DNA from: a virus
Length of the DNA stretch: 30,990 nt
IMG/VR virus record: IMGVR_UViG_3300020469_000164
Coordinates: 1 to 30,990 of that record
Strand: one strand, 5' to 3'
Shown here piece after piece: positions 4,958 through 26,022 of the stretch. The notes under the pieces were generated by a model. It saw only the letters and a program-made list of their open reading frames with translations. It was not told the DNA's origin and made no database searches. The translations under genes were made by a program, and so were the position numbers. How positions within the stretch are numbered: the stretch's first letter is position 1; every line of letters begins with the position of its first letter.

Positions 4958-5657
4958 CGACTTTTCCATAGTAGTCAGCCAATCTTTCGGCCCATTTACC
5001 ACAGTACTTATCAAATTCTTCGCCTTCGATTTTAAATTCCTTAAACTTAGATTCTCTGTCAACCATAAGTATAACTACTTTTCTTATTTTTGTTTCAAAC
5101 ATTTCATTATGTGCCAATGCGTATGCACAACCTTGCATAAAGTAATCTTCGATCCATTCGCGTTTCTTAATTTTTTTAGCAGTCTTGAAGTCAATAATTG
5201 CTTCTTCGCCCTCGTACATACCTATAGCATCGCTTGTACCTGCGTATAAGCCTTTTGCAATTAAGGCTACTTCTACGCCCCACAGTTCATCTATTTTTGT
5301 TAATCCATTATTAACCATTTCGTTTGTCATACTTTCTGCTAATATACTAACATGGTTATTACCAAAGGTATTCCATTCTTCTCCAAGAATATACTTTTCT
5401 AATGCATTATGCACTTTAGTACCAAGACCTGCGGCCTCTGTGCTGATACGAGTTGCTTCGGCATTGCCTACACGTTTACGCCAGGCTATAAGAGCAGTCT
5501 TGTCTCCTGTATCTGAAAGGATAGTTGTAACACTAGGAACAGGATTATTATCATCGCCAGTATATTGACGTTGTCCTGACTTTGCTGTTACTCTTTTTAG
5601 TTGGGGATAATTGTATTTGTTTTCTAAAAGGCTTTCTGTTACCACTTGATTGTCCAC
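4941..5657 (-). CDS. PD-(D/E)XK exonuclease, MGME1/RecB-like, 238 aa
   Basis: Predicted DNA exonuclease for phage recombination, replication-end processing or host DNA breakdown. Nuclease-fold motifs appear in order: GTKVHNALE (His83), LWGVEV (Glu129), YAGTSDAIG (Asp143), AIIDFKTAKK (Asp156 and Lys158 of the D-x-K core), and QGCAYALA (Gln175). This order is that of the RecB/Cas4-type nuclease family, and the spacing fits the MGME1-like exonucleases found in marine T4-like phages. The upstream gene overlaps by 19 nt and the radical SAM gene starts inside its last codons, so all three are probably co-translated. Metal dependence and polarity cannot be read from sequence. Confidence 0.85.
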   Translation of the reverse strand: MDNQVVTESLLENKYNYPQLKRVTAKSGQRQYTGDDNNPVPSVTTILSDTGDKTALIAWRKRVGNAEATRISTEAAGLGTKVHNALEKYILGEEWNTFGNNHVSILAESMTNEMVNNGLTKIDELWGVEVALIAKGLYAGTSDAIGMYEGEEAIIDFKTAKKIKKREWIEDYFMQGCAYALAHNEMFETKIRKVVILMVDRESKFKEFKIEGEEFDKYCGKWAERLADYYGKVDAGKI

Positions 5658-11745: not shown

Positions 11746-14700
11746 TTTAACACTGATACCTGTACTGCTGGACCATTTTGACTGTCTGCCATATCTAAAC
11801 TTGTAAATGCTAAATGCTCACTGAATTTTGGAAATTCTTCTGTTGTACAATTTACTACTTTATCATGTCTCCAATTTAAAAATATTAATCTATTAAAACC
11901 TTTTTTGTTTAACATGTATGCATAATTTTTAAATGACATTAATCCTACAAGTGTTAAGAACCTTGCCTTATCCATATTCATAAATGAACTAGTTAATTCT
12001 GTTTCTTCTTCTGAGTCAATAACAAATTGATATGTGCTAACAATTAATTTTAAAAATTCAGCACCTACGCCTTGCTTTACTTGTTCTAATTGTTGTGCTT
12101 GATCTAGTATATGGGCCTGGCCTTGATTACGACCACCACCAATTGCGCCTTTTAAATTGTATATTCTTAATTCTTCTGGTATTTCATGCTTTTCATAAAA
12201 TGGTACTAGTTGTGATTTAACCTGTGCTAATCCACTAAACTTAAAGTCGTCAATACCGTTAACCATTCTACCGCCGCCTGACGACACTTCACCTTTAACT
12301 TCTATTTCTTCGCCGTTAACTTTAATATCACCTACTGAAGCAAGTTCTACATTAGGTGATAGCAAACACAATCCAAGTTCACCTGGTCCTCTGTTTGAAC
12401 CAGATATATTAATTCTAAAATCAAATAATTTTTCATAAAGATCATCTATAAATTCTTTAGATACTGCATCAGTTCCTACAAACATGTCTGAAATTTTAAA
12501 CACACCAGACTTGTTTAATAATTCTGTGTTTACATAATCTGCATGTCCGTAAGTTTCAACAAATGCATTTATTTCGTCAAAATCATGATCTAGTTGCTCT
12601 AGAGATACAACTAATTGTCTCATGATATTCTTGTTAATTCTATGATCGTTTTCTTTACCAGTGTCGTTATTTTTAAGTCTATCTTCAATATCCAAATGGT
12701 CTGCTGATTCTTTATCAAGTTTTAACATTTTGTAAACTCGTTTTGCAAAACTTGGATTATTTTCTAATGCAGTCATTATGCTGTTTAATCTATCTTCAGT
12801 TGCATCTTCTCTAATATAACTTTCATTGAGATCAAGTTGCTTTACTTCTGCATCTGGTAATCTATTTTTTGCAAAATGTCTTAGGATATCTCTACCACAT
12901 GCTTCTGGTCCTTCTATGCTTTTTAATTGACTAAATGCTGTCATCATTCTCGGTACGGGTAATGCCAAATATGCTTGGAATTGCATATCTAAGTCACCTA
13001 CAGGAAAAGTTTTTGACAGTAATCTTTTTAGTATTGCTAATTTATTATTGTTAGGCATATTTTCTGTGAGTTTTTTAGTTCTTGCTAAAACATCTATACC
13101 TAATAAACTTTCTGTTTTTTGTTTATCAAAATAACCACGGTCTATCATTCTTTGCATCATCATATCTGCTTTTGCTTTGCCGTGCTGTTGTATGAACTTC
13201 TTGTGCGTATTTTTAATATGTTGTTTTTTATTGTAAGGTGTTTTTTGCATTTTAACTGGCTTAGTTGATAGTTCTTCGACACCTGGATGTAAATGTGCAT
13301 ACTCTGGATATTTTTTAGCAAATGCTTGATATGACAATTCTCTTATGTCGATATCTAAGTTGCTAAAAAATCCTTCCACTACAGGACTATGCAATATTTC
13401 TAATTGTTTTTCTAATGATAAATTTTCAAACTGTTCAAAAACATTTTTCATATTAGTATTTATTTTATTTTCCTTTGCCATCTTAGTTGCAGTTGCATAC
13501 ATTACTGCTTCTGCGTCATCTCCATATCTTTTTTTGAAACCTTTTTTGTTTTTCTTCATGCCTTTGACGTATTTTTCTTTGTCTTCTTTTTCATCTTTAG
13601 ATAATTTTCTTTCAGTAAATTTTTCTAATACATTTGATTGATTTATAATACGCAACTGTTCTTGTAAAGGCAATGCATCAAATTTATCAAATACACTTTC
13701 ATTGCCTTGTCTACGAGTAACTGCTAATGCATCTTGGAAAGTAGCAAAAGGACCGTTTTCCATATCACCTCGATTTGTTATAGTATTTAAAACCTGCGAT
13801 TTGAAAACATTATCATTGCTTGGATTGTTTAAAAATCCTACTAGGTCATTTACTTGACCACGTGCTAAGTAATTCTGCATACCACGTTGCATCATTCTAT
13901 CAAAGCCTGGATGGTCTGCTCTGGCTTTGTCGTAATCTGAATCAAACTCATTTTCTGGTGATGTTGATATTGTATTATTACTATACATACTGCTTACATT
14001 GTCGCCGTCACTGCCATCTGCATTCTTTCTAAAGTAGTTCCCACCACTTACATTGTAGTTGTCTTTGATATATTTTTCTGCTTCTTTAACTGCGGCGGCC
14101 CATCTTTTTAATCCAATTACATTTTTGCCATCCTCGTCGGTTTCTTCAGGTCTCCAGTTGTGGTCGCCATCAAATTGATTATAAACTTTTAAAAGTAAGT
14201 TTGGACCTTGATCGTTTACACCTCGTTCTATTCCTAAGTAGTCAGACAAGTTAGTCCAATTTGTTTTACTTGCTATACTGTTTGAACTGTCTCCGTCCAT
14301 TTCTTCTACACCAGCCGCTCTGGCCAATCTGTCTAGAGGTCTTCCTAAATCTTCTTTGTCTATGGACACTTTACCATCTAAAACTTTTCTAAGTACATCT
14401 TCTAATGCTACTTTAAAACTACCATATCGATCTTGCTTCATAACCTTAGCAACAATATCTTTCATTTTTGCCGGATACTGTTCCCAATCAAATGCATCAA
14501 ATTGTTTTTGGCTTGCTTCGTCGTTGTTCATTGACCAACTTGTTGCACTACTTCTGTTTAGTGGTTCACCGCTGGCAGAATTCTTAGTTAATTCGTCTGA
14601 CAGTAAATCTGTTTGACCAGGTGCACCTTTTCTGCTGTCGCCTTTGTGAGATATTTCAATACCAAGGTCTTTGAGTTTTGAATACAAGTCCCCGTCGCCT

Positions 14701-17700
14701 GAATAAAACTTTTCGTCGTTGGTTAAATCTTTCCAACTGTAACCATATGTGTTCTGGAATTTGTTGATTATCCGTTTATAACCTTTTTTACGCCAAGTAT
14801 GAAAGTAGTTTTTGCTTTTTTCAAAAGTGTCTATAAGTTCCAAACCATTAGTGGCGTCCTCGGCATCACTCCAGTGACTGGAAGGTATAACATACACTTT
14901 GGTATTGTTTACATTTTTGTTAAAGTTGTCTATATGATTATCTAAATATGCTTCTCTATCACCATAACTTTTATCTGTTATTGTATCAAAAAAGTCTTTG
15001 TCTATGTACATCCAACTGTGACTTGGTATGTTTAGTTTTGCTCTTGCATTGTCTCTGACATTCTTTTCAAAGTCCTTATTTCTTCTATCTAATGTATTTT
15101 TTGCTTGTATTTCTGCTTTTAAATCTAAGAAGCCTTCTTTGCGGAATACTTTATCAAATTCTGATAAGAATTTTTTAATTGACGCAAATCTTTCTTTGTG
15201 TAAGTTTTTCAAAACAGCACTTTGCGTAGGTCCGTTGGATTCTTTCCAAGAATAATATCTATCTAAATGTATAACACCTATAATATAGTCGTCATACGCA
15301 CTAGTAAAATTATATGTTTTATCGCCTGATGTTAGTTCACTTTCTAATTTTACTATTCTGTCCATAGCATTATTCCAACGTTCTAGATCACTATGTGTAG
15401 CCAAATCTGCTTCTCCATCAGAGCCGCGGGTGATTTGGGCACGTCCGTCTTCATTTTCGTCCCAAAGATCTGGTCTAGGCTTTAAGCCTTCTAATAATTC
15501 AATTCCAACTTTGACCAATTGTTGCTGTAGTTTGGTTGCTTTTTCTGGATCGTCTGATTCTAACTCTCTTATATGTTCTAATCTTTCTCTTAAACGTTGT
15601 CGAAGTCTCATGTCAAATACAGATGCATAAGGGTCATCGCTTTTGATATTAATATGATGCTCTTTGCCGGTTGGGTGTTTGTAACCACTATATGGTTCTA
15701 AGAATTTTAATAATTCTGCAGATGCTCCTGGTGTGGTAATTTTTCCTGTGCCCATCAAAGTAATACCGGTATTCCAACCTGAGCCTTTTAGTTTAGCACT
15801 AAATCCATTTTGCTGTCTTTGATGCATTAAATCTTTTAATATTTCTACAACATTAGGTTTATCATTTCTTGGATTTAATTGCATGAATAATTCTGCAAGT
15901 TCGTCAGTTTTACCATTGTCTTTTACATCGTCTGATTGATAAAATTGCCACATACCTGTAGCAATCCTGTCGGCATCTTGCGGTGAGAGATATTCTGGTT
16001 CTGAAATTATATTTCTTTTGAATAAAGTATCTATACCTTTTTTCAATCTTTTAATATTGCTTCTATCAGGATCACCCCAGTTAAAATCATCCATTTTTGT
16101 TATGACAATTTTTTCTAATTCTTTATCATCTAACTTAATTAAATTTGCATATTTTCTAAATGCACCTATATCTTTTGCTGAAACATTTCCTCTGTTGTTG
16201 CCGTCTGCTATGTCTCTTGCTATTATAGTAACAGCCGATGCAAATTTTTCTTGTGCTTTTTTTAGTTCGCTTGCCGCACCTTTGCTTGGTCGTATATTGT
16301 CTGGTGCTATATAACCTGTTATCTCTGCTTCTTTTATATCAAATTTTGTACCAGTATTTTTTTCATATTCTTTAACACTTTTTAACCATTCTTTGTCAGC
16401 ACCTGGTTTGCTTAATTCTTCATAATATCTCAAACTTTCAACACTATTGCTTAATAAATTAATAACATCAAAGTAGTCTTTTTTACCTACAATACCTTTT
16501 GCAGAGTCTATGATTTCGTGATTAACAACTGATAAGGCTTTTAATTTTTTAGGATCTATTTCTTGTGATTTACGCAAAAGCCTGAACACAGCATTAACAT
16601 AATCTCTTTTATATGCGTCTTTTTCATATCCGGCTTGCATTATAGTTGCGTATCGCACAACTGCTTTTGCAACTTTGTCATACATTTCTTGATAGTCTGA
16701 GCCACCAGCAATTCTAAATTCAATAAGGTTAGTTCCTGCTATTCTATCTTTTTCGCCTTTGAAATGTATACTGTTAAACTTACCAGTGTCTATGCCTTTT
16801 GTGAGTATCTTTTCAAATTCTTTAAAACTTTTTGCCTCACCACGTTTCATGCCTTCTGCATGTTTTAATACATTATTGTATTGGCTTTTTGTGTAACTAT
16901 TTCTTAGTCTGCCGAACTCTGCTAGTAAGTATTCATCACCTAATAGCAATGCCATTTTTAATTTGTTTGGTCCTGTTGCGTCAAGGTTATAAAATTCGTC
17001 GTCTTCATCTTTCACTGTATCAGGATTTTTACCGTGCCAACTCATTGTGACATGTAGACCTGTGGAATTGTTTGTGCCAAAGTTTGTTTCGCTCCAATCA
17101 AATAAACTTTTCATTTCTTTGAGCATTTTTTTTGGAGAATCAAAAACAGGTGATATAAGTTCTGCACCTGCACCTTCGTCCGGATTTATACTGCTGTCTG
17201 TTTCAACTGCCCAACTTGTAGTTGTGTTAGTATCGCCATACTCGCCTGATTCAGGATAACTATCAAATTCACTGTTATCTCTGATCCATGTATGTAATTC
17301 ATCTGCGACACCTTCTACATCGCCACTTGGTCTACTGTAGTCATAACCATAATCATCAAGGAAACTGCTCATATAACTGTGGTTGTCATAAACCCAATCT
17401 TCCATGCTGTAATCACCTTCAGCAAGTTCTTTGGCTTCATCTTCAAAATTGTATTCGTCTCTTACTGCCCTATCTAACCACTCTAAATAGTCGTCTTCGT
17501 ATTCTTCTTCGACATATTCTCTTACCCAATTCATATACTCCCAACCGTCTTCTTCACGGTTTTCGTATTCTTTGGGATTTTCTTCTTCAAATTCGTTTTT
17601 GTATACTTCTACTGCTTCTGAACTTGGTCCTGCACTACTGTCTATAAAATCATTTAAATAATCTTCATCTTCTTTAACTTCGTGTACTTTGTCTGAAATT

Positions 17701-18398
17701 AAATCGTCTATGTATTCGTCTTGTCCTTTTTGATATAACCAGTCCTGATAATCTTCATATGCTTGATCTGGTAAGTCTCCATATTCATATTCTATGTCAC
17801 TGATGCTCATGTTGTCTACATCATCACTGGCTCCACCTCTATCCACATTAAAGAAATATGTTTCTGCTTCAAATCCACATTTTATAGGTAGTTCTAACGA
17901 ACCTTTTGCTATTTCTTTTTTATTAAAATTTATTTCGAATAATGTAGGATCTGCTTCTTTTAGTAATTTAGATCTTTTTTTGAACTTTGTTAAATTCTTT
18001 TTACCAGTTAATTTTTTTAATATTTTTTTAGCAAGTGTACTTTCGTCGATGTCCATTTGGTTTGCTTTTTTAAGTATGTTTGCTAATTGATTTCTCAATG
18101 CAGGAGTCTGCATTGCTTTTGTTAATTGTACATCAATTGGTAATTTTGATTGTAATTGTTGTGGTGTTGGCTTATCGCCTTGTATGGCCTTGTTTATGCC
18201 TTTAGCGGCCATTTTAGGATTCTGTATAGGCTGTCCCAACTTGGCTCCTAGTGCCTTAAAACCTTTTGCTACTTCCTTTTCTTGGTCAGGTGTGAATGGC
18301 TCCATTTCCATTTCGTCGTCATTTTTATTTGACTGCTTCGCATTGGAATTTGGATCTTGTATTCCTTTGTTATATTCGTACAAGTCGTCTATTTTCAT
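11742..18398 (-). CDS. Giant multidomain protein, amidoligase-like plus PD-(D/E)XK-like, 2218 aa
   Basis: About a fifth of the window. The N-terminus MKIDDLYEY follows the shared pattern, and 1-160 is Lys/Gln-rich. Residues 175-570 fit the amidoligase (carboxyl-amine ligase, glutamine-synthetase-like) family: GFEAETYF (175-182), WAVETDSSINPDEGAGAELI with SP (396-417), NNSTGLHVTMSW (443-454) and IEFRIAGG (559-566). A long Asp/Glu/Tyr/Trp-rich insertion fills about 190-385. The middle has no named domain, but carries a basic module (KYVKGMKKNKKGFKKRYGDD, then VMYATATKMA, about 1605-1640) seen in other marine phage virion proteins. Near the C-terminus (2004-2045) GPGELGLCLLSP, VGDIKVNG (Asp2024) and EVKGE (Glu2033, Lys2035), followed by GGGR, look like a PD-(D/E)XK nuclease core. 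A likely packaged virion protein; its chemistry is inferred. Confidence 0.9.
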   Translation of the reverse strand: MKIDDLYEYNKGIQDPNSNAKQSNKNDDEMEMEPFTPDQEKEVAKGFKALGAKLGQPIQNPKMAAKGINKAIQGDKPTPQQLQSKLPIDVQLTKAMQTPALRNQLANILKKANQMDIDESTLAKKILKKLTGKKNLTKFKKRSKLLKEADPTLFEINFNKKEIAKGSLELPIKCGFEAETYFFNVDRGGASDDVDNMSISDIEYEYGDLPDQAYEDYQDWLYQKGQDEYIDDLISDKVHEVKEDEDYLNDFIDSSAGPSSEAVEVYKNEFEEENPKEYENREEDGWEYMNWVREYVEEEYEDDYLEWLDRAVRDEYNFEDEAKELAEGDYSMEDWVYDNHSYMSSFLDDYGYDYSRPSGDVEGVADELHTWIRDNSEFDSYPESGEYGDTNTTTSWAVETDSSINPDEGAGAELISPVFDSPKKMLKEMKSLFDWSETNFGTNNSTGLHVTMSWHGKNPDTVKDEDDEFYNLDATGPNKLKMALLLGDEYLLAEFGRLRNSYTKSQYNNVLKHAEGMKRGEAKSFKEFEKILTKGIDTGKFNSIHFKGEKDRIAGTNLIEFRIAGGSDYQEMYDKVAKAVVRYATIMQAGYEKDAYKRDYVNAVFRLLRKSQEIDPKKLKALSVVNHEIIDSAKGIVGKKDYFDVINLLSNSVESLRYYEELSKPGADKEWLKSVKEYEKNTGTKFDIKEAEITGYIAPDNIRPSKGAASELKKAQEKFASAVTIIARDIADGNNRGNVSAKDIGAFRKYANLIKLDDKELEKIVITKMDDFNWGDPDRSNIKRLKKGIDTLFKRNIISEPEYLSPQDADRIATGMWQFYQSDDVKDNGKTDELAELFMQLNPRNDKPNVVEILKDLMHQRQQNGFSAKLKGSGWNTGITLMGTGKITTPGASAELLKFLEPYSGYKHPTGKEHHINIKSDDPYASVFDMRLRQRLRERLEHIRELESDDPEKATKLQQQLVKVGIELLEGLKPRPDLWDENEDGRAQITRGSDGEADLATHSDLERWNNAMDRIVKLESELTSGDKTYNFTSAYDDYIIGVIHLDRYYSWKESNGPTQSAVLKNLHKERFASIKKFLSEFDKVFRKEGFLDLKAEIQAKNTLDRRNKDFEKNVRDNARAKLNIPSHSWMYIDKDFFDTITDKSYGDREAYLDNHIDNFNKNVNNTKVYVIPSSHWSDAEDATNGLELIDTFEKSKNYFHTWRKKGYKRIINKFQNTYGYSWKDLTNDEKFYSGDGDLYSKLKDLGIEISHKGDSRKGAPGQTDLLSDELTKNSASGEPLNRSSATSWSMNNDEASQKQFDAFDWEQYPAKMKDIVAKVMKQDRYGSFKVALEDVLRKVLDGKVSIDKEDLGRPLDRLARAAGVEEMDGDSSNSIASKTNWTNLSDYLGIERGVNDQGPNLLLKVYNQFDGDHNWRPEETDEDGKNVIGLKRWAAAVKEAEKYIKDNYNVSGGNYFRKNADGSDGDNVSSMYSNNTISTSPENEFDSDYDKARADHPGFDRMMQRGMQNYLARGQVNDLVGFLNNPSNDNVFKSQVLNTITNRGDMENGPFATFQDALAVTRRQGNESVFDKFDALPLQEQLRIINQSNVLEKFTERKLSKDEKEDKEKYVKGMKKNKKGFKKRYGDDAEAVMYATATKMAKENKINTNMKNVFEQFENLSLEKQLEILHSPVVEGFFSNLDIDIRELSYQAFAKKYPEYAHLHPGVEELSTKPVKMQKTPYNKKQHIKNTHKKFIQQHGKAKADMMMQRMIDRGYFDKQKTESLLGIDVLARTKKLTENMPNNNKLAILKRLLSKTFPVGDLDMQFQAYLALPVPRMMTAFSQLKSIEGPEACGRDILRHFAKNRLPDAEVKQLDLNESYIREDATEDRLNSIMTALENNPSFAKRVYKMLKLDKESADHLDIEDRLKNNDTGKENDHRINKNIMRQLVVSLEQLDHDFDEINAFVETYGHADYVNTELLNKSGVFKISDMFVGTDAVSKEFIDDLYEKLFDFRINISGSNRGPGELGLCLLSPNVELASVGDIKVNGEEIEVKGEVSSGGGRMVNGIDDFKFSGLAQVKSQLVPFYEKHEIPEELRIYNLKGAIGGGRNQGQAHILDQAQQLEQVKQGVGAEFLKLIVSTYQFVIDSEEETELTSSFMNMDKARFLTLVGLMSFKNYAYMLNKKGFNRLIFLNWRHDKVVNCTTEEFPKFSEHLAFTSLDMADSQNGPAVQVSVLK
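13457..13464 (-). promoter_or_regulatory. Possible internal late promoter inside the giant gene
   Basis: Minus-strand AATAAATA, followed after exactly 5 nt (CTAAT) by an in-frame ATG at 13451. This is the arrangement found at five independent gene starts here. It would drive a leaderless 569-residue C-terminal product (MKNVFEQFENLSLEKQ...) carrying the nuclease-like domain. In AT-rich DNA a chance match is quite possible. Confidence 0.35.
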
Positions 18399-18673
18399 CT
18401 TCTTCTGTTTAGTTTTGCTACTCTTTTGCTTATTGGATTACGCCTTTTTGTTCTAGCGGCTCTCCTTGCCATTCTCTTGCCCATTTTTGCTCTAGTCTTC
18501 TTGAGCGTCATACGTTTTTTTAAGTTGATAGGTTTAGAGCATTGGCCTGCATTAGACACCATTCTGCCTTTGCGTGGACCACTAGTACATCTGACCTTAC
18601 GAACAATTTTACTGCCTCGCTTGGCCCAGACCATTTTGGCCTCCATTACTTCTTCTACTTCAACTATTCTCAT
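18395..18673 (-). CDS. Very basic small protein, probable DNA-binding packaged protein, 92 aa
   Basis: 33 of 92 residues are Lys or Arg. The start MRIVEVEEVMEAK fits the shared CTS-like pattern with a near-match VME cut site at 9-11. A two-cysteine module follows (VRKVRCTSGPRKGRMVSNAG, then QC), whose RCTSGPRKGR core recurs in small marine phage proteins as I recall. The C-terminal half (MGKRMARRAARTKRRNP and a final RRR) is histone-tail-like. It could neutralise packaged DNA or bind nucleic acid in the host. The start is 2 nt after the preceding stop, and the end overlaps the giant gene's start (ATGA). Confidence 0.85.
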   Translation of the reverse strand: MRIVEVEEVMEAKMVWAKRGSKIVRKVRCTSGPRKGRMVSNAGQCSKPINLKKRMTLKKTRAKMGKRMARRAARTKRRNPISKRVAKLNRRR

Positions 18674-18674
18674 T

Positions 18675-18917
18675 TTAAAATAACTTAAATATTAATGCGA
18701 TTATCAAACTTGACATTGTCGCAAATACACCTGCCATAATACCTACAAGCCAATTCTCTATTTTAGCAAAATGGTCTTTTACTTCAACTTTGAATTCTTT
18801 GATTTCTGTTGTGACTTGCTCTATTCTCAGCATGTCAGCAATAACTTGTGATTTTAAATCTGGTTCGTTAGCATACAACTGTTCTGCTGGTTTGCTATCT
18901 AATTTTTTGTCTGCCAT
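18675..18917 (-). CDS. Small membrane protein, coiled-coil plus C-terminal TM helix, 80 aa
   Basis: Residues 1-45 are hydrophilic, 30-55 form a probable amphipathic helix (EQVTTEIKEFKVEVKDHFAK), and 56-80 form one hydrophobic transmembrane span (VGIMAGVFATMSSLIIALIF). This layout, with a helix and then a C-terminal membrane anchor, resembles the XhlA/holin-accessory type, but there is no specific match and no lysis neighbours. It could equally anchor a complex to the host membrane. It overlaps the 134-residue gene at TAATG. A single C-terminal TM is clear; function is not. Confidence 0.75.
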   Translation of the reverse strand: MADKKLDSKPAEQLYANEPDLKSQVIADMLRIEQVTTEIKEFKVEVKDHFAKIENWLVGIMAGVFATMSSLIIALIFKLF

Positions 18918-19321
18918 TATAATACGTCCTGTTTAGAAAATTCCATATTTACGGAACTTTTAGTATTAATAGTACCACCATTTAGTACTATTCCGTCTAA
19001 CTCGTCTTTTAATGTGTCTAATGTATGAGCGCCTTGCCTTTCAAATGCAAACTTAAATACCCAACCTGCACCTGTTAATGTTGGTGCACCATAATCATCA
19101 AGTCCTGCCGAACTTCCGTCTACTGTGATTGGTGTGTTCATCAGCATTGGCTGTGCTCTCAAACTTATTACCTGTACTAAACTTTCAAAATCTTTTTGTG
19201 TATCATCTGAAAAATTGTCTGTGGCAGTTATGTCTAATTTGGTGAACAAAGTAAAAAATTCAACATCACCTGTGAGTACCTCACTTGATGTTAAAAGTCC
19301 ACCCGATCTTGTTTGTGCCAT
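18917..19321 (-). CDS. Hypothetical structural-type protein, 134 aa
   Basis: No family recognised. It is moderately acidic, with alternating hydrophobic residues (DVEFFTLFTKLDITATDNFS; WVFKFAFERQGAHTLDTLKD) that suggest a mixed alpha-beta fold. There is no enzyme motif. It has a late-promoter match at 19349-19356, a 27-nt leader with a good GGAG ribosome site, and it follows the terminator at 19400-19421, so it starts a new transcription unit. It is followed in overlapping series by the membrane protein and the basic protein. Confidence 0.8.
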   Translation of the reverse strand: MAQTRSGGLLTSSEVLTGDVEFFTLFTKLDITATDNFSDDTQKDFESLVQVISLRAQPMLMNTPITVDGSSAGLDDYGAPTLTGAGWVFKFAFERQGAHTLDTLKDELDGIVLNGGTINTKSSVNMEFSKQDVL

Positions 19322-19348
19322 ATGTGTCTCCTGTCACTGTTATAAGCA

Positions 19349-19356
19349 TATTTATC
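19349..19356 (-). promoter_or_regulatory. T4-type late promoter, leadered class
   Basis: Minus-strand GATAAATA, 27 nt before the ATG at 19321, with GGAG in the leader. It lies just downstream of the terminator of the preceding gene, as expected for a fresh transcription unit. Confidence 0.65.
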
Positions 19357-19399
19357 ATTTTCTCAGTATATTCAGGTACTATTTTAAAAGCCACAAAAA

Positions 19400-19421
19400 A
19401 ACCCCCTTAAAAAAGGGGGTT
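19400..19421 (-). terminator. Rho-independent terminator
   Basis: On the minus strand the hairpin is AACCCCCTT, loop TTTT, AAGGGGGTT: a perfect 9-bp stem including five G-C pairs, followed by a run of T. It lies 43 nt after the stop of the 105-residue gene and ends that transcript. On the plus strand no T-run follows, so it acts in the minus direction. It is the only clear factor-independent terminator in the window. Confidence 0.92.
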
Positions 19422-19463
19422 AAAATTTCTAAATTTTAAGTTGTTATCTAAAACTAATTGTTA

Positions 19464-19781
19464 TTAGTCTACAAAGATTGCTTCAACAGTTGTAACTGCT
19501 CCAGTAACGCCGTGTGCGTTTGAACCTTCTGCTGTATAATCTGCGCCTGCGCCTTGTAATGCAACAAATACTGCGTCTGTTGTTCCGCCAACAAATGCTG
19601 ATCCGTCTGCTGTTCCAACGCCTGCTACTGCAAATCCGTCTAATTGCATATCTGCTAGAACAGTTTTTAATTCTGCTTCTGTGATATTTGTTTTTGCAAC
19701 TTTAACGATATCTGTTTTTGAACCTAATCCGTTACCAATGCCTTGTCCTGCTTGGCTTGTTTCAAATGCTACTAATGCCAT
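19464..19781 (-). CDS. Small Gly/Ala-rich protein, likely abundant structural protein, 105 aa
   Basis: No family recognised. The sequence is Gly, Ala, Val and Thr rich with no charged clusters (GQGIGNGLGSKTDIVKVAKT; GVGTADGSAFVGGTTDAVFV), a compact beta-like profile. Codons are GC-richer than the neighbours. It stands alone: a late-promoter match 71 nt upstream, a 10-bp inverted repeat in the leader, a GGAG ribosome site and a strong terminator after the stop. That layout suggests high, separately tuned late expression. A head decoration protein or major virion component is a reasonable guess, but not shown. Confidence 0.82.
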   Translation of the reverse strand: MALVAFETSQAGQGIGNGLGSKTDIVKVAKTNITEAELKTVLADMQLDGFAVAGVGTADGSAFVGGTTDAVFVALQGAGADYTAEGSNAHGVTGAVTTVEAIFVD

Positions 19782-19806
19782 AATACATCTCCTAATTCTT
19801 TATTGC

Positions 19807-19840
19807 GTTATAAAAGTATGATTTTTAAAACTTTTATAAC
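19807..19840 (-). repeat. 10-bp inverted repeat in the leader of the 105-residue gene
   Basis: GTTATAAAAG at 19807-19816 and CTTTTATAAC at 19831-19840 are exact reverse complements, separated by 14 nt. It begins close to the predicted mRNA 5' end from the late promoter at 19853-19860, so it could form a 5' hairpin that protects the transcript or regulates it. Confidence 0.7.
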
Positions 19841-19852
19841 TTTGGTTACTTT

Positions 19853-19860
19853 TATTTATC
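19853..19860 (-). promoter_or_regulatory. T4-type late promoter, leadered class
   Basis: Minus-strand GATAAATA, 71 nt upstream of the ATG at 19781. This is the longest leader in the window and contains the 10-bp inverted repeat. Confidence 0.6.
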
Positions 19861-19911
19861 TAAGAAGTTAGATTTTTTGAGGTTTTAAAATTGAAAATAT
19901 TGAGATTTTGT

Positions 19912-20472
19912 TTACTTTTGCAGTAAATCTTTGAATTTATATCTCAGATTTGCCATGGTATCGCTTGGTTTTCTAATAAATGATGCTACTGTATTCTTAA
20001 CTGCCTTACCAGCCTTTTTAATTGTGTCTTTACCAGGTACAATGTAGTCATAATCTTTAATACGGTCAACTTCTTTATCAACATAATACTTATCGTGTCT
20101 AAGTTGTCTGCCATCGGAACCGTATCTTTGGTCTCCTCGCTTGCCTCTACCTCTTAGAATGTCGTCTTGTCGTTTACGTCTTGTTTTTTGAGCGCCACTA
20201 TCTCTAGGGTCTTTTTTAGGTTCTGCCTTAGAAGTTGCTTGTCCTGTGTCTTGTTTACTGACTTCTTGGTCTGTAGTACCTTTTTTCTGTACATTTGTCA
20301 AGTCACCAATTTCAACACCTGTGCCTAATGAATGCCCCATTTGAGAACCTATTGATTTTGTATCAATACCTTGCCCAGCAAGCCTACGTTGAATATACAA
20401 ATCCTGCAATTCTTTGTTTTTTGCTCTTTGGTCGTCGCTTACTTCTGTTATTACTACTTCGTCTATTCTCAT
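19912..20472 (-). CDS. Hypothetical protein with capsid-targeting-like N-terminus, 186 aa
   Basis: Function unknown. The first ten residues MRIDEVVITE end in I-T-E, an exact match to the T4 (L/I)xE cut consensus at the same length as T4 internal protein III's targeting peptide. The remainder is mostly hydrophilic and probably disordered: a Gln/Lys/Asp-rich middle (SKQDTGQATSKAEPKKDPRD) and a basic stretch (QKTRRKRQDDILRGRGKRGD), then a basic helical C-terminus (AGKAVKNTVASFIRKPSDTM). A late-promoter match (20478-20485) ends 5 nt before the ATG. It overlaps nothing downstream and precedes the 105-residue gene by about 130 bases of mostly leader sequence. Confidence 0.82.
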   Translation of the reverse strand: MRIDEVVITEVSDDQRAKNKELQDLYIQRRLAGQGIDTKSIGSQMGHSLGTGVEIGDLTNVQKKGTTDQEVSKQDTGQATSKAEPKKDPRDSGAQKTRRKRQDDILRGRGKRGDQRYGSDGRQLRHDKYYVDKEVDRIKDYDYIVPGKDTIKKAGKAVKNTVASFIRKPSDTMANLRYKFKDLLQK

Positions 20473-20477
20473 ATTAC

Positions 20478-20485
20478 TATTTATG
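20478..20485 (-). promoter_or_regulatory. T4-type late promoter, leaderless class
   Basis: Minus-strand CATAAATA ending 5 nt before the ATG at 20472. It overlaps the stop of the preceding gene by a few bases. Confidence 0.6.
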
Positions 20486-21248
20486 ACCTTTTTCTACTTT
20501 GCCAGTATGCGGCAATGCCTGCCAACCCAGCCGCGGACTTAGGTCCTAGCCTTCCACCTGTTATTCTTGGACCAAATTCTGCACCAACGTATGCCGATGC
20601 ACCTGCTACTGCTAAACGTTTTAGTGTTGTTTGATCAGTTGCTTTGTCTAATTCTGTATTAGTTGCATTAACTAATTTATAGTTTCTCTCTTTTGCAAAC
20701 TTATTTAAAGTTTTATACAAGTCACTTCTTACTGCTTTGGCTCTCATTATATGTAGCATTTTTGTAACTGCTAATTGTTTCTGTCTATATTTTAATCTAC
20801 TCCAATCTGATATTAATCTTCGTACATTCTGTATGACCATATCATTAATTTTTAGTTGCTTTTGCAATCTTAAAAAGTAAACTGAGTTTGGAATTTTACC
20901 TTTAGCAATACTAATCATAAATTGATGCATTAATTGTTCATTAAATTTAAAATCTTTTTTGTATTTAGAATTAATTGTGTATGCAATCATGTAATGATCG
21001 TTTGCACCCAATCTACTTGCACGATATTTTCCGTGCCTTACATTTGCATTTGCATATTGTATTGCAAATGGTCTGTATTTTTTATCTTGTGCAAACACAT
21101 ATACCAACATGGTTGTTACCATTAGTAATTGTGCCATATCATCTTTAGTATATGGCTTGAACCCTTCGGTTGTTCTGAATAATCTACTTTCCTGTAGATC
21201 GCCTAAGAATTGATATTGTGCTTGTTTTTGTTCTTTAGGTGTTTCCAT
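20481..21248 (-). CDS. Hypothetical protein, 255 aa
   Basis: No family recognised. It is largely helical. Near 35-55 is a hydrophobic helix (MAQLLMVTTMLVYVFAQDKK), then a Tyr/Asn-rich stretch (YRPFAIQYANANVRHGKYRA), then basic helices (KYRQKQLAVTKMLHIMRAKA). A small Gly/Ala-rich C-terminal segment (VAGASAYVGAEFGPRI...SAAGLAGIAAYW) is followed by a basic end. No catalytic motif is visible. The start has GGAG and overlaps the ligase-like gene at TAATG, so the two are co-translated. It could be a partner or a virion protein; no function is claimed. Confidence 0.8.
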   Translation of the reverse strand: METPKEQKQAQYQFLGDLQESRLFRTTEGFKPYTKDDMAQLLMVTTMLVYVFAQDKKYRPFAIQYANANVRHGKYRASRLGANDHYMIAYTINSKYKKDFKFNEQLMHQFMISIAKGKIPNSVYFLRLQKQLKINDMVIQNVRRLISDWSRLKYRQKQLAVTKMLHIMRAKAVRSDLYKTLNKFAKERNYKLVNATNTELDKATDQTTLKRLAVAGASAYVGAEFGPRITGGRLGPKSAAGLAGIAAYWQSRKRS

Positions 21249-22516
21249 TATGCTCCTGGTCTCCCTGTGCCAAAGTTTTTAACACTAAAGTCTAATCTGT
21301 CAACTAATTTAATTGCGTTTCCAATATGATCAACAGCAACAAAGCCTTCTTCACCTGTAACATCATAGTCGCCTTCTTGGTTTTGTACAAACGTGTCTAT
21401 TTGTCTTATGTTTGCTAATTTTTTAATTATCATTTCTTTTGCTTTGATCAAATCTAAATACACAACGTATGCTTTTTCTATCTCTTCTTGATTGCTTTCT
21501 AAAAATTTAATACCGTCTATCATTAATTTTGTTTTTCTTACTTTACCGTCATCACTTTTTAGTTTTTCAACTGCTGATTTGAGTGTGCCTTTATACTCTG
21601 CAATAAATCTTTGAGCAAATACTTTTGGATCTTGTTCGAAACCTACTAATTCTCTGATAATTTTATTTACACTTGCTTTGATTCTTGTTCTTAAGTCATC
21701 ACCAAATTCGTTATTTTTAAGAAAGTCTAAATCTGTAACTGCTTTCAAGTTTTGATCTGCATTGTTAATTAGTTCAGCCATTTCTTGTGACTCTTCTTGT
21801 GTAAAAGTAACTTGCCCTGAGTAGTCTCTTATGATTGCATCTCTGTGCCAAACATTAGGGTGACTGCCTAAACTACTTGCATCAAAGCCAAACTTTGCTG
21901 ACAAGTCTGCTAATCCGCCTCCGCCAACATATTCTGTGTGAAACACTATGCCTATTTTTGAACGTAGAATATCATTTGCAAGATTACTGTTTTTAGGAAT
22001 GGCATATATAATTGTGTTTGGTTTAAACACTATAAATTCTTCGCCTTTGATATTTGCTTCTGATATACTGTCGTCTGTGTACAGTAAATCTCCTTGTACA
22101 ACTTTTCCTTTAAAATTTAATTTTTGTAAATGCATAAATGCACTAATTAATTTTTCTTGTAAGCCTTCTGCTTCGTGATTTGCTTTGATGTCTTCGATGC
22201 TTTTGTTTACTAATGGATTTCTTTTGTTGAATACACTTTTAGTACCTACAAAAAACTTACCGTCTGCTGGGTCTGTACCTACAAATACTGCTGGAGCACC
22301 GTCCCATTTTGTTGTTAAGTTGAATTTTGTTTTAGCACTACCTTTCAGCATCTCATGAAAACTGTGAAGGTATTGTATTGCTTGTTTACCTCCAGGTAAT
22401 CCGTCGTTAAATATTAAATCTTCTAAATGTTCAAGGTGAGTGTTTTTGCTTTCATCTAGTCTGTGATGAATTACACATTCAGTTAAGTATCCTTTAGTAA
22501 GATCGACTGCTCTCAT
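21248..22516 (-). CDS. Nucleotidyltransferase (ligase-fold)-like protein with CTS-like start, 422 aa
   Basis: Probably related to DNA/RNA ligases or mRNA capping-type enzymes, with an unknown substrate. Motif I is clear: TTKWDGAPAVFVG gives K70-x-D-G, where the lysine would carry AMP. Other blocks fit the same fold: TKSVFNKRN near 92-100, KGKVVQGDLLYTDD near 137-149 (motif III/IIIa position), and EFIVFKPNTIIYAIP (160-174). A later FHTEYVGGGGL is less typical. It begins MRAVDLTKGYLTE, fitting the shared pattern with a possible L-T-E cut at 11-13, so a packaged enzyme is possible. Classical motif V could not be placed. It may be a DUF6267-type member, from memory. Confidence 0.7.
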   Translation of the reverse strand: MRAVDLTKGYLTECVIHHRLDESKNTHLEHLEDLIFNDGLPGGKQAIQYLHSFHEMLKGSAKTKFNLTTKWDGAPAVFVGTDPADGKFFVGTKSVFNKRNPLVNKSIEDIKANHEAEGLQEKLISAFMHLQKLNFKGKVVQGDLLYTDDSISEANIKGEEFIVFKPNTIIYAIPKNSNLANDILRSKIGIVFHTEYVGGGGLADLSAKFGFDASSLGSHPNVWHRDAIIRDYSGQVTFTQEESQEMAELINNADQNLKAVTDLDFLKNNEFGDDLRTRIKASVNKIIRELVGFEQDPKVFAQRFIAEYKGTLKSAVEKLKSDDGKVRKTKLMIDGIKFLESNQEEIEKAYVVYLDLIKAKEMIIKKLANIRQIDTFVQNQEGDYDVTGEEGFVAVDHIGNAIKLVDRLDFSVKNFGTGRPGA

Positions 22517-23328
22517 TAAAAACTCGTATCAATTTTTGGTATTCTAGCATCGCCTGGGTCACTACTTAGAGGTGCTGGCATCTCTGGTGCGGCACCTTTC
22601 TTAATTTTCATTCCGTTTACACTTAATACTTGTGAACTTATAAGTGCAAATTGAGTTTTACCGTCTGGTGTTGAACAAAGTAGATCTGGTACTCCGTCGC
22701 CATCTCTATCCACTTTGAGGTCTAGTCCAATTGCTTTTGCAGTTTTAAATTCGCCGTTTTTATTTTTATAAACTATTTCGTCACCGGCTTTTGGTTCTGC
22801 AATACCATATACCTTTTTCCACACATCGCCGACAATTTGCTTACTGCGTCTTTTTGCTCTCATTCTATCGATAACTCCGCCTACTCTTGCTCCAGCCATA
22901 CCTAATGCTTTATTAAAGTTCGGTGTTAGAGCACCTCTCATGTTAGGTTTAGTTGCATACTTCATTGCAGAAGCGGCTCCTGGTTGTGTAGGATCAGTTG
23001 GATCAAATAAATTTTTTATTTTTTGTATAAGTGTAGGCCCTTTGCCTTTCTGCGCCTTTACTCGTTGCTTCTGTACCTGCCTTATAATAGATATATCTGC
23101 TTGTACAAAACCACCTATTGCAGGATCAAAAATATACATCAAGCCATCACCATTATCAATATATGCTTTTTGATCGACACCGCTTAATTCAAATTCAAAA
23201 GCATCATATTGATCTTTGTTTTTTAGAATGTTTTTCCACATTAATTTATCACCGTCCCTATCTAAGGAGGCCATGCGTCTACTTCTTCTATTTTCGTCTT
23301 CGAATTGAATTACTTCATTAATCTTCAT
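22516..23328 (-). CDS. Hypothetical protein with CTS-like start, 270 aa
   Basis: Function unknown. The start MKINEVIQFEDE fits the shared pattern but lacks a perfect (L/I)xE. Residues 10-75 are charged and helical (ENRRSRRMASLDRDGDKLMW), and a small beta-like unit (AYIDNGDGLMYIFDPAIGGF) follows. Residues 80-165 are basic and probably disordered (RQVQKQRVKAQKGKGPTLIQ; RVGGVIDRMRAKRRSKQIVG). A C-terminal domain near 180-245 contains DRDGDGVPDLLCSTPDGKTQ, a Dx[DN]xDG-type calcium-binding loop (DRDGDGVPD). The stop touches the ligase-like gene's start (TAATG). Confidence 0.8.
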   Translation of the reverse strand: MKINEVIQFEDENRRSRRMASLDRDGDKLMWKNILKNKDQYDAFEFELSGVDQKAYIDNGDGLMYIFDPAIGGFVQADISIIRQVQKQRVKAQKGKGPTLIQKIKNLFDPTDPTQPGAASAMKYATKPNMRGALTPNFNKALGMAGARVGGVIDRMRAKRRSKQIVGDVWKKVYGIAEPKAGDEIVYKNKNGEFKTAKAIGLDLKVDRDGDGVPDLLCSTPDGKTQFALISSQVLSVNGMKIKKGAAPEMPAPLSSDPGDARIPKIDTSF

Positions 23329-23584
23329 TTGTTTTGGACCTTGATTCTTTGATAATCTGTACGCCCTTTACAAATCTTTCTGGCCTGTTGCCTTTGATAG
23401 AATTAATTAGACGCCTTTGTAAGTCTAATGCTTCTGCTTCATCAAAGTTTTCTTGAATTAATTCGATTAAATTTAAGGCACTTTTGATAATGTGATTACC
23501 TCTAGACTCAATGACATTGAGTTTGTCTCTTTCTGAAACTATAGAGTTTAATTCATCTAAGATTGATCTGTGATTTAAGGACAT
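23318..23584 (-). CDS. Small conserved-type hypothetical protein, 88 aa
   Basis: No function known to me, although the core pattern (NVIESRGNHIIKSALNLIEL, then IQENFDEAEALDLQRRLINS) looks familiar from T4-like marine phages. It is an all-helical, charged protein with no catalytic motif. It has its own late-promoter match (23603-23610), an 18-nt leader and a GGAG ribosome site. It lies between the helicase gene and the CTS-type block and overlaps the latter's first gene by 11 nt, so it is transcribed into that late block rather than with the primase-helicase unit. Confidence 0.82.
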   Translation of the reverse strand: MSLNHRSILDELNSIVSERDKLNVIESRGNHIIKSALNLIELIQENFDEAEALDLQRRLINSIKGNRPERFVKGVQIIKESRSKTNED

Positions 23585-23602
23585 TTTATCTCCGTTTAAG
23601 CA

Positions 23603-23610
23603 TATTTATC
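23603..23610 (-). promoter_or_regulatory. T4-type late promoter, leadered class
   Basis: Minus-strand GATAAATA, 18 nt before the ATG at 23584, with GGAG in the leader. It opens the 23.6-20.5 kb overlapping gene series. Confidence 0.62.
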
Positions 23611-23614
23611 AAAA

Positions 23615-25000
23615 TTACTTCTTCTTGAGGAGATTCCTAAGTTCCAAACCTTGCTGTACAATGTCAACATTGTCTTCTGTGGCATCATCGTCGCTTCTAA
23701 TCGCTGAAGATCGTTTGAGTGTTTCGGTCATTGTTATTGTGTTGATGGTGTCATATGTTTCTTCGTCTTCCTCTAGGTCTTCGATTCTCAGTGTTTCTGG
23801 GTTAAATTTTAAGTCTACCTTACTGCCAACACCACTACTTGAACGTGTTTTCATGAACTGTATCTGATATCTACCACGTTCTCTCATGGCATTACTTGTA
23901 AATATACCCACAACATTATCTGCTGTTTGTATTTTACTAATACCACCTGCAATATGACTGTGATCAAACTCTATTTCCTCTACTGCACCTCTGTTTAACT
24001 GCGATGCTGTGACTAACAGTACATTTAATTCTACTGCTAAGTTACGCAACTCTTCAGATACATACTTGTCTTTAATAAACAAGTCACTTGGTGACACTTT
24101 TCCACTAATTGGCATCATCAAATCCAAGTAATCTACCAATAATGCGTCTACTTTGATGCCTGTTTGTATCTCATATTCTCTCAAAAACGACCTAATATCA
24201 TTGGCATTTACACCATTGCTCATCTGTTTTATGCGGAATTTACCTGCACCTTTACCTTTCATTACTACTTTTAGGTGAACATCATCCATGTTTTTCATGA
24301 CATCTCTGGTTGCATATTCACTGACCATAGCATCAATACGCATACTTGACAGTTGTTCACTTAACTCTAGACTCAAATAAACAGTATTAAGTCCTGCTTG
24401 ACTCCAGTTTACACCTAAGTTTTGTAAAAACAAACTCTTACCTGCACCTGAACCACCTGCAAATACTGTAAGTTCTCCCCTATTAAGTCCACCATATAAC
24501 TTTTGATCGAAGTTTTTCCAGCCTGTGCTTATTGCTCCTGCTTGATCTTTAATCCATTGTAATCTTTCTTTAGGATTTTCATAATAATCTAAACCAAAAT
24601 CACTTACTAAACCTACGCCAGTTGCTTCTTTGATAAGTGCCTCTACACTACCATAGTCTTTATTTTCTAATAAGTCTGTACTATCTAGTATTGCTTTTTC
24701 TAATGCTTTATGTCTACAGAATGTTTCAAACTCATCCATAAACCAACTCATATGACTGTCATGTGCATCTTCAACTGGCTTTAATTCTATGCCGTTCACT
24801 GCTTCTAGTTGTTCTAGTGTCGGAATACTAGCATATTTGTTAGCATGGTCTTTTAAAAACTCTACTGCTTCTCTGTATTTTCTATTAAACATGTAAGGCT
24901 CAACGATATTGTTTACCCTTACGAATACATCAGGATCTGTAACTAAAAATCTTAGAAACAGTTCTTGTATATCTTCGCCGTATTCTTTTATATCACTCAT
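23615..25000 (-). CDS. gp41: Replicative DNA helicase, T4 gp41/DnaB type, 461 aa
   Basis: RecA-fold hexameric helicase that unwinds the phage replication fork. Residues 1-150 are an N-terminal helical domain (DIQELFLRFLVTDPDVFVRV). The C-terminal ATPase begins about 155: TGWKNFDQKLYGGLNRGELT, then Walker A FAGGSGAGKS (about 180-189), VYLSLELSEQ (the H1a/DnaB-typical Glu region), and Walker B VDALLVDYLDLM. A basic loop region and TASQLNRGAVEEIEF follow, with KTRSSSGVGSK near the arginine-finger end. Length fits T4 gp41 (475). It overlaps the primase stop by ATGA, as expected for a primosome pair. Confidence 0.95.
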   Translation of the reverse strand: MSDIKEYGEDIQELFLRFLVTDPDVFVRVNNIVEPYMFNRKYREAVEFLKDHANKYASIPTLEQLEAVNGIELKPVEDAHDSHMSWFMDEFETFCRHKALEKAILDSTDLLENKDYGSVEALIKEATGVGLVSDFGLDYYENPKERLQWIKDQAGAISTGWKNFDQKLYGGLNRGELTVFAGGSGAGKSLFLQNLGVNWSQAGLNTVYLSLELSEQLSSMRIDAMVSEYATRDVMKNMDDVHLKVVMKGKGAGKFRIKQMSNGVNANDIRSFLREYEIQTGIKVDALLVDYLDLMMPISGKVSPSDLFIKDKYVSEELRNLAVELNVLLVTASQLNRGAVEEIEFDHSHIAGGISKIQTADNVVGIFTSNAMRERGRYQIQFMKTRSSSGVGSKVDLKFNPETLRIEDLEEDEETYDTINTITMTETLKRSSAIRSDDDATEDNVDIVQQGLELRNLLKKK

Positions 25001-25986
25001 AACATTTTACTCTGTACTTCAATCTTAATTTTATTTGCGACAGCATATTTAATTATACTAGATAATGTCAAAAGTCTGCCATATTTGAGTACCGCATCAC
25101 CAACATCTTTTATATCAGTGTGCCAAGGCGGGAAACTTACTTCCCACCCTAGTTCAGCGGCCTGCCTTATTAAATCTTTACCTGGTGCATCTCTGTCCGG
25201 GCAAAGTATTACTCTTTTATTTAACGAATTTATCTGTTGTATCTGTCTTTCGTTCATGGTATTACCTAATACACTTACACCATCTATTAGTATAGCATCA
25301 ATAACACCTTCTGTTACTACTACAATGTCTCTATCTGAATAAATGTATTTGTCTATATTAAACACATATCCTGCTTGACTGTTGTTAATATATTTAGGTG
25401 TTTCTTTTGTAGGTGGATTTATATGCCTACCTACATATCCTACTACTTCTTGGTTGTAGTAGAATGGTATTATTAATCTGTTCTTTAACATAAAGTCATC
25501 ACAAATAAACAAATCATAATTTGTGTCTAGCAGTTTTCTTTCTTTTGCATACAACATTATATTTTCATGTGCTTCGTTGTATGGCAGTTTAGGAATATCT
25601 CTGACGTTTACTACATTTGGTAATTCTACTGGTTTAAATTTTTCATAGTTTATTACAATATCATCAAGTTCGCTATCAAACTCTTCGATCTTCATAAGTT
25701 CTAGTACAAGTTTCTTTACACTTTCATTAGTTGCACCTAACTTTACAACTAAGTCCTTATACTTTTTACCAATCTTTTTGCTAGGACTCCATCCTGTAGA
25801 GAAGCCACAGTTAAAACAGTTATACGCAATCTTAGGACCAGTGGCAATTACACCTGCTCTACCTCTTCTATCGTTACACATAGGGCAACTAAAAGTTACC
25901 CAACCAGCAGGTGTCTTTTTATGCTTATGCGGTATATGAGATGTTAGTAACTCGTGTACCTGTTGTATTGCGTCAGAGTGCTCCAT
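24997..25986 (-). CDS. gp61: DNA primase, T4 gp61 type, 329 aa
   Basis: Makes RNA primers for lagging-strand synthesis together with the gp41-like helicase. The N-terminal zinc-binding module has CPMC (Cys34, Cys37) and CFNC (Cys57, Cys60). The central core includes CDDFMLKNRLIIPFYYNQEV, then the TOPRIM domain with VVVTEGVIDAILIDG (about 218-235) and VILCPDRDAPGKD (about 257-270), containing the conserved Glu and DxD. The start ATG at 25986 is preceded by a strong sigma70-type promoter whose -10 ends only 7 nt before the ATG, so the mRNA may have little or no leader. The stop overlaps the helicase start. Confidence 0.95.
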   Translation of the reverse strand: MEHSDAIQQVHELLTSHIPHKHKKTPAGWVTFSCPMCNDRRGRAGVIATGPKIAYNCFNCGFSTGWSPSKKIGKKYKDLVVKLGATNESVKKLVLELMKIEEFDSELDDIVINYEKFKPVELPNVVNVRDIPKLPYNEAHENIMLYAKERKLLDTNYDLFICDDFMLKNRLIIPFYYNQEVVGYVGRHINPPTKETPKYINNSQAGYVFNIDKYIYSDRDIVVVTEGVIDAILIDGVSVLGNTMNERQIQQINSLNKRVILCPDRDAPGKDLIRQAAELGWEVSFPPWHTDIKDVGDAVLKYGRLLTLSSIIKYAVANKIKIEVQSKML

Positions 25987-25993
25987 TGCTGTT

Positions 25994-26022
25994 ATTATAC
26001 TAGATTATATGTATGAAGTCAA
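25994..26022 (-). promoter_or_regulatory. Strong sigma70-type (early) promoter for primase-helicase
   Basis: On the minus strand the -35 is TTGACT (26017-26022), the -10 is TATAAT (25994-25999), and the spacer is exactly 17 nt: a near-perfect host consensus. It overlaps the end of the sulfotransferase-like gene. The -10 ends 7 nt before the ATG, so +1 falls close to the start codon. It is the only clear sigma70-type promoter noticed in the window, consistent with early expression of the replication proteins. Confidence 0.88.

Follow-up and report, generated by a model that had tools for sequence, protein, structure and literature searches.

The late cassette in the window

The window, by which we mean the whole stretch of 30,990 bases analysed here, comes from an uncultivated virus record and carries, on its minus strand, a 105-codon gene within the following arrangement:

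19853..19860, minus strand: late promoter motif of the T4 type, GATAAATA, from a motif match; the same TAAATA core lies 5′ of 54 of 55 related genes
19782..19852, minus strand: leader of 71 nt from the promoter motif to the ATG, by distance count
19807..19840, minus strand: leader hairpin of 11 bp (arms 19840-19830 and 19817-19807, 12-nt loop), from folding, repeat search and compensatory pairs
19789..19793, minus strand: Shine-Dalgarno (SD) sequence AGGAG, 7 nt 5′ of the ATG, unpaired in the predicted fold
19464..19781, minus strand: 105-codon gene of an unnamed small-protein family, ATG at 19781, with the top per-codon bias in the window
19393..19421, minus strand: intrinsic terminator, stem 19421-19400 plus T-rich tail, from a terminator scan
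18917..19321, minus strand: downstream neighbour, a homologue of PA5oct gp250 that lacks a leader hairpin and has a separate GATAAATA at 19356-19349; a synteny anchor outside the cassette

The late promoter, the 71-nt leader and the GGAG of the original prediction were all confirmed, the last as AGGAG at 19793-19789. The promoter motif at 19860-19853 is one of seven copies of GATAAATA on the coding strand of the window, the opposite strand having none; shuffling the coding strand gave a mean of 2.5 copies and a maximum of 9 (200 shuffles). As in promoters of the T4 type, a TAAATA core lies directly 5′ of late genes on the coding strand. This core near late genes is common to the window motif and the T4 late promoter TATAAATA, but the first base of the window motif is G, and the GATAAATA form also occurs in 12 of 15 promoter-leader pairs of the phage PA5oct.

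The inverted repeat proposed near the predicted 5′ end exists, but it is 11 bp long rather than 10, with perfectly paired arms (GTTATAAAAGT / ACTTTTATAAC) around a loop of 12 nt. Only two of 1,546 71-nt stretches of the window reach 11 perfect pairs, both overlapping the cassette repeat, and 0.2% of 2,000 dinucleotide-shuffled leaders attain that number. Folding energy alone is weaker evidence for the hairpin, since the leader had a z of -2.1 and 7 of 200 shuffles folded equally well. A role of the hairpin as an SD-sequestering switch was rejected, the SD being unpaired in the predicted fold.

At the other end of the gene, a GC-rich stem followed by a T run lies 3′ of the stop codon, as in intrinsic terminators. 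The claim that this is the only clear terminator holds for the coding strand, where 19421-19400 alone passed a strict filter, but two further strict-filter sites lie on the opposite strand, within a 2218-aa gene; a laxer scan of positions 14,000-26,000 returned 12 candidates against 5.8 expected, with 19421-19400 the strongest. The coding region is indeed GC-richer, at 42.1% the highest of 30 ORFs (GC1 62%, GC2 48%), but its GC3, at 18.1%, is the lowest of the 30, so that the high GC stems from amino-acid content, and we rejected gene GC as an expression signal.

The 105-aa protein and its relatives

Relatives of the 105-aa protein were found only in uncultivated viral contigs, 208 in total; single-sequence search gave 113. 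Queried by tblastn, the window protein and a divergent member had no relative in 50,697 phage records, and two other leader-associated small proteins likewise had no match in phage records. A bacterial genome collection yielded 71 stretches in a pattern search, none encoding a relative. No DNA similarity to phage records was found for 20,991 window bases, and the leader as a blastn query gave just short, chance-level matches. No Pfam or PHROGs family matched the window protein; 46 family members reached a best E of about 0.006 against scattered models of these two collections, in which the proteins behind GAG-loop leaders (see below) had no convincing family either.

The structure predicted for the 105-aa protein (mean pLDDT 82.8) aligned with ferredoxin-like domains (best Z 8.4, rmsd 3.4, 79 residues), which is a generic match, and a Foldseek search of viral proteins had a single significant match, to an uncultured-phage protein that is uncharacterised. 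With regard to known capsid decoration proteins, fold and sequence comparison showed just these generic ferredoxin-like matches and the one uncharacterised phage protein. Taken to mean the major capsid protein, the suggestion that this gene encodes a major structural protein was not supported: the window protein lacks any Pfam match, PF07068 (Gp23) included, and capsid genes are separate and without a hairpin leader both in PA5oct and in a 354-kb contig, the one of ten long contigs in which a Gp23 gene was found. We rejected the 105-aa gene as the major capsid gene.

For comparisons of leaders, 55 distinct sequences were drawn from 102 loci (80 kept of the 208 relatives, plus 22 of 80 single-sequence-search loci), after dropping loci with a cut gene or a gene start less than 100 nt from the contig end and merging identical 90-nt upstream regions. 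Behind hairpin leaders we counted 95 distinct proteins, 63 in family A and 32 outside it, a count that mixes loci fetched by gene and by pattern. Families A and B showed no profile similarity and were rejected as a single family; the score of 97.5% for A4 versus A5 is inflated because the L089 protein is in both alignments. The predicted structure of family B had a mean pLDDT of 60.8. In L089, L093, L125, L153 and L058, the family-A gene has a further small-protein gene, of family B or paralogous, directly 5′ of it, and in the first four loci the leader of this further gene has a GAG-type hairpin; the second small protein of L058 was counted among the hairpin-led proteins.

A covarying hairpin in the leaders of related genes

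A hairpin of at least 5 bp with the loop NGAGN is present in 35 of the 55 distinct leaders, and L136, L150 and L155 have six-base loops starting AGAGT. Its 23 distinct 19-mers align gap-free, with GAG the sole invariant part (23/23; 7 of the 23 loops are GGAGC). All six stem pairs tested change on both sides, and 99.3% of cells pair; the covariation score was 1.06, compared with 0.25 in shuffles (none of 500 reaching it) and no more than 0.17 when partners were slid. The form of the hairpin differs among lineages. Four of seven L014-type leaders have, close to the 5′ end, stems of at least 6 bp of the TAGGGT..ACCCTA type without a GAG loop, and L124-type leaders have an additional stem with the loop AGGT 5′ of the GAG hairpin. 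In the window clade the stem is A/T-rich and the GAG is missing; four distinct versions of this stem show three compensatory pairs, which were counted directly, as the MAFFT alignment misplaces the 3′ arms. On the evidence of these sequences, the window clade has kept the stem and lost the GAG loop.

In 29 of the 35 leaders the GAG hairpin begins 7-13 nt 3′ of TAAATA, and in the other six a different hairpin is present at 3-6 nt. From the GAG hairpin to the SD the distance varies between 7 and 21 nt; given the fixed short spacing from the promoter, the hairpin appears anchored to the 5′ end and not to the SD. The ribosome-binding site is unpaired in the predicted folds, as in a stabilising stem-loop.

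A structured 5′ UTR with covariation is a trait shared with Rfam cis-regulatory leaders, but no Rfam family scored above the gathering threshold in the window and 13 related loci (14 sources). With lax thresholds, 10 sub-threshold matches appeared in the window region, of which 9 fall in the terminator/stop region, and the surroundings of the L160 gene gave no match.

A corresponding cassette in the cultured phage PA5oct

The replicative helicase encoded in the window has matches in 3,187 phage records, the best being PA5oct-group jumbo phages (58% identity). The gene 3′ of the cassette matches PA5oct gp250 (38%), which is annotated as structural by ESI-MS/MS, and also proteins of SCTP-2, Atu_ph07 and Phosso. 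We compared the first 200 kb of PA5oct, a Pseudomonas jumbo phage (Arenbergviridae). Upstream of gp250, in the slot that corresponds to the 105-aa gene, PA5oct has gp251, of 100 aa, annotated as a structural (virion) protein by ESI-MS/MS. The gp251 cassette shares with the window its slot, promoter, 5′ hairpin, SD and terminator: it consists of GATAAATA, a 7-bp hairpin (TACAAAG-GAAA-CTTTGTA), GGAGA and a terminator. It differs in its loop, GAAA, and in its protein, which has no detectable homology to the 105-aa family (HMM E 0.09); tblastn of gp251 gave no match in the family loci. PA5oct also has an annotated late sigma factor, gp346; late promoters of the T4 type are recognised by a sigma factor of the gp55 type.

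Elsewhere on the minus strand, the window encodes a 669-aa protein with radical SAM and B12-binding domains (3053-5062), a 640-aa protein with a Cu/Zn superoxide dismutase domain (PF00080, E 4e-45) and a long further region (9823-11745), and the 2218-aa protein mentioned above (11742-18398), which has short local matches to PHROGs without known function (best E 3e-8 over about 50 residues).

The hairpin marks one small late gene in most long contigs

A stem of at least 6 bp starting no more than 14 nt from TAAATA was found in 43 of the 55 family leaders and in 12 of 83 other TAAATA-led genes of the same loci. Four of these 12 control stems belong to the sister small-protein genes of L089, L093, L125 and L153; without them 8 of 79 remain (43/55 vs 8/79, Fisher p 4e-16). 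The search admitted loops of up to 16 nt and so misses long-loop stems, those of L084, L086 and L087 being counted as 5-bp stems. The family genes of L089, L153 and L157 lack such a stem, that of L058 lacks a promoter, and those of L099 and L119 were missed by the filter of the stem search. By the 6-bp measure, one of four promoter-led leaders in the window has a stem, as does one of 15 promoter-leader pairs (14 genes) in PA5oct 50-200 kb, namely that of gp251, and we rejected the idea that late leaders in general have the hairpin.

The leader was also sought without reference to genes, using the pattern TAAATA, 5-35 nt, CYCNGAGCGRG, which occurs at no fewer than 120 sites in viral contigs. 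Among the matches listed, 59 sites have at least 6 stem pairs: 48 of these lie before a complete ORF of 73-165 aa with an SD and 7 before an ORF truncated where the contig ends, and the remaining 4 lack an SD/ATG. Of the 61 listed sites with 5 or fewer pairs, 57 lack an SD/ATG, 1 is followed by a small ORF and 3 by ORFs of different length. These classes were taken from the pattern-fetched set alone.

A covariance model of the hairpin matched exactly once in 8 of 10 long contigs (70-355 kb), always 5′ of a small late gene. By coordinates, six of the eight single matches lie directly 5′ of a family-A gene, and the remaining two, in the L187 and L193 contigs, precede small proteins outside family A; the contigs without a match are those of L112 (L014-type) and L154. 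The occurrence of one hairpin per genome in these eight contigs indicates that the hairpin is gene-dedicated. The model gave no match in the window or in PA5oct 1-200 kb, as expected from their different loops. At two further positions (L077:3805 and L147:6854), a GAG-loop hairpin without TAAATA just upstream lies before a gene whose product starts MATKEA, with stems GTTC/GAAC versus ACTC/GAGT.

Codon usage and terminators

The codon usage of the 105-aa gene departs from that of the rest of the window with a z of 5.3 over about 103 codons, and all 18 of its alanines are encoded by GCA. Two large window genes have a codon-bias z of about 5, with a far smaller excess per codon. In per-codon bias the family gene came top in 19 of the 31 loci that are 7 kb or longer, where 2.6 firsts were expected, and first or second in 24; it ranked low in L097, L105, L123 and L125. 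A terminator follows the family gene in 53 of the 55 distinct relatives, the others being L087, whose contig ends shortly past the gene, and L089, where the hairpin after the gene is imperfect. From these indirect signals, the family gene is apparently highly expressed and its protein probably abundant. The proposal that the late cassette is isolated and tuned for a high output thus gained indirect support, from the covarying hairpin, the terminators, the codon bias and the synteny with PA5oct.

A 5′-terminal hairpin as a putative mRNA stabiliser

We consider it moderately probable that the cassette is an insulated monocistronic late unit, in which a hairpin at the 5′ terminus would shield the message for a small, abundant protein of virion type. 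A promoter of the T4 type would give rise to a short mRNA whose stem-loop would begin about 2-8 nt from the predicted 5′ end, and the SD would stay free. The hairpin would most likely block 5′-end-dependent decay, which would make the single message longer-lived, and the strong codon bias and the terminator would complete a high-output cassette decoupled from its neighbours. The sequences themselves establish the motif, the stem with its covariation and recurrence, the terminator, the codon bias and the synteny with an annotated virion protein, whereas the transcription start, the stabilisation of the RNA, the abundance of the protein and its place in the virion are predictions. Late transcription in T4 starts about 6 nt 3′ of TAAATA. 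By analogy, the window transcript probably starts near 19847, and stems beginning at 7-13 nt would leave 2-8 unpaired 5′ nucleotides, given T4-like start spacing.

Two properties of the leaders point to a function at the mRNA 5′ end, namely the narrow spacing between promoter and hairpin and the turnover of loops between clades. As the loops differ by clade (NGAGN, AGGT, A/T-rich, and GAAA in PA5oct), pairing at the 5′ terminus emerges as the common denominator. According to a review (PMC3997798), a 5′ hairpin impedes 5′-end conversion by RppH and stabilises bla mRNA in E. coli. The ompA and papA messages, and bla with an appended 5′ hairpin, resemble the present cassette, which has a stem-loop near its predicted 5′ end, a free SD and a single, apparently highly expressed message; the present case differs from them in being a phage late gene and in having an invariant GAG loop in most lineages.

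Alternative readings

Stabilisation alone does not account for the invariance of GAG in the majority lineage, and this keeps alive the possibility of a translational operator, in which a factor of the phage or host, such as the small virion protein, would bind the GAG loop and tune translation. The stem would then serve to present the loop, as in autogenous control, and the window clade would have lost or changed this control. That GAG is fixed in all 23 distinct hairpins while six stem pairs covary is consistent with such a reader, as is the single hairpin per genome in 8 of 10 long contigs, a gene-dedication that fits a stabiliser and an operator alike. The generic ferredoxin-like model also agrees with it, this fold being common to some RNA-binding proteins, e.g. 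ribosomal protein S6. However, the same hairpin leads protein families without detectable similarity, the window clade, L014-type leaders and PA5oct have a hairpin without a GAG loop, and the distance from the hairpin to the free SD is variable. We regard an operator as possible, at roughly one chance in four.

A more specific proposal is that the NGAGY hairpin is an undescribed, gene-dedicated RNA operator of T4-superfamily late genes, with a phage protein reading the GAG loop, a 3′ handle added by GGGATGGG (see below), and only the protective stem kept by the window clade. The reader would perhaps be the small ferredoxin-like virion protein, matching its own synthesis to assembly. This elaboration we hold to be tentative, at slightly less than one chance in four.

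Much less probable is a ribosome standby or second docking site, in which the loop GAG would mimic the SD core and draw 30S subunits to a heavily translated message. GAG does lie inside the SD core, and GGAGC loops make up 7 of the 23, but the hairpins of the window, L014-type leaders and PA5oct have no GAG, and the spacing to the true SD varies over 7-21 nt. We think it equally improbable that the repeat acts at the DNA level on late initiation, or as a nuclease site on read-through RNA from upstream: its short fixed spacing from the promoter motif would suit such an element, but it is absent at other late promoters (stems in 1 of 4 window leaders, 1 of 15 in PA5oct and 8 of 79 controls), and changing arms around a fixed asymmetric loop suit a folded strand over a protein-bound palindrome. 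That the window repeat is a chance A/T-rich palindrome, as a folding z of only -2.1 might suggest, is very improbable given its uniqueness among 1,546 window stretches, the three compensatory pairs in its clade and a position the same as that of the hairpins in 43 of 55 relatives.

Relation to known elements

The late promoter, the 5′ hairpin and the terminator are each of a known kind. We found no description of a covarying GAG-loop leader in literature titles and abstract openings, although one may already be in print. To our knowledge, the post-transcriptional control of late phage genes has been little explored. A covarying hairpin that occurs once per genome (8/10 long contigs), together with a cassette in the cultured phage PA5oct, raises a testable question: why a single small gene of virion type should require an RNA element to itself, be it for message stability or for a binding protein. 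The hairpin also offers a means of recognising, in uncultivated T4-like and jumbo phages, a small unnamed protein that is probably abundant.

A recurrent element 3′ of the stop codon

In 22 of the 55 distinct relatives, GGGATGGG (mostly GGGATGGGAAG) lies directly 3′ of the stop codon, before the terminator; L160 is an example (record G001:12458-12468), and the element is absent from the window. Of 10 records searched, 8 contain the 11-mer GGGATGGGAAG a single time, and none contains its reversed control. The element can fold into a hairpin whose AGGGAT loop is similar to a CsrA/RsmA site.
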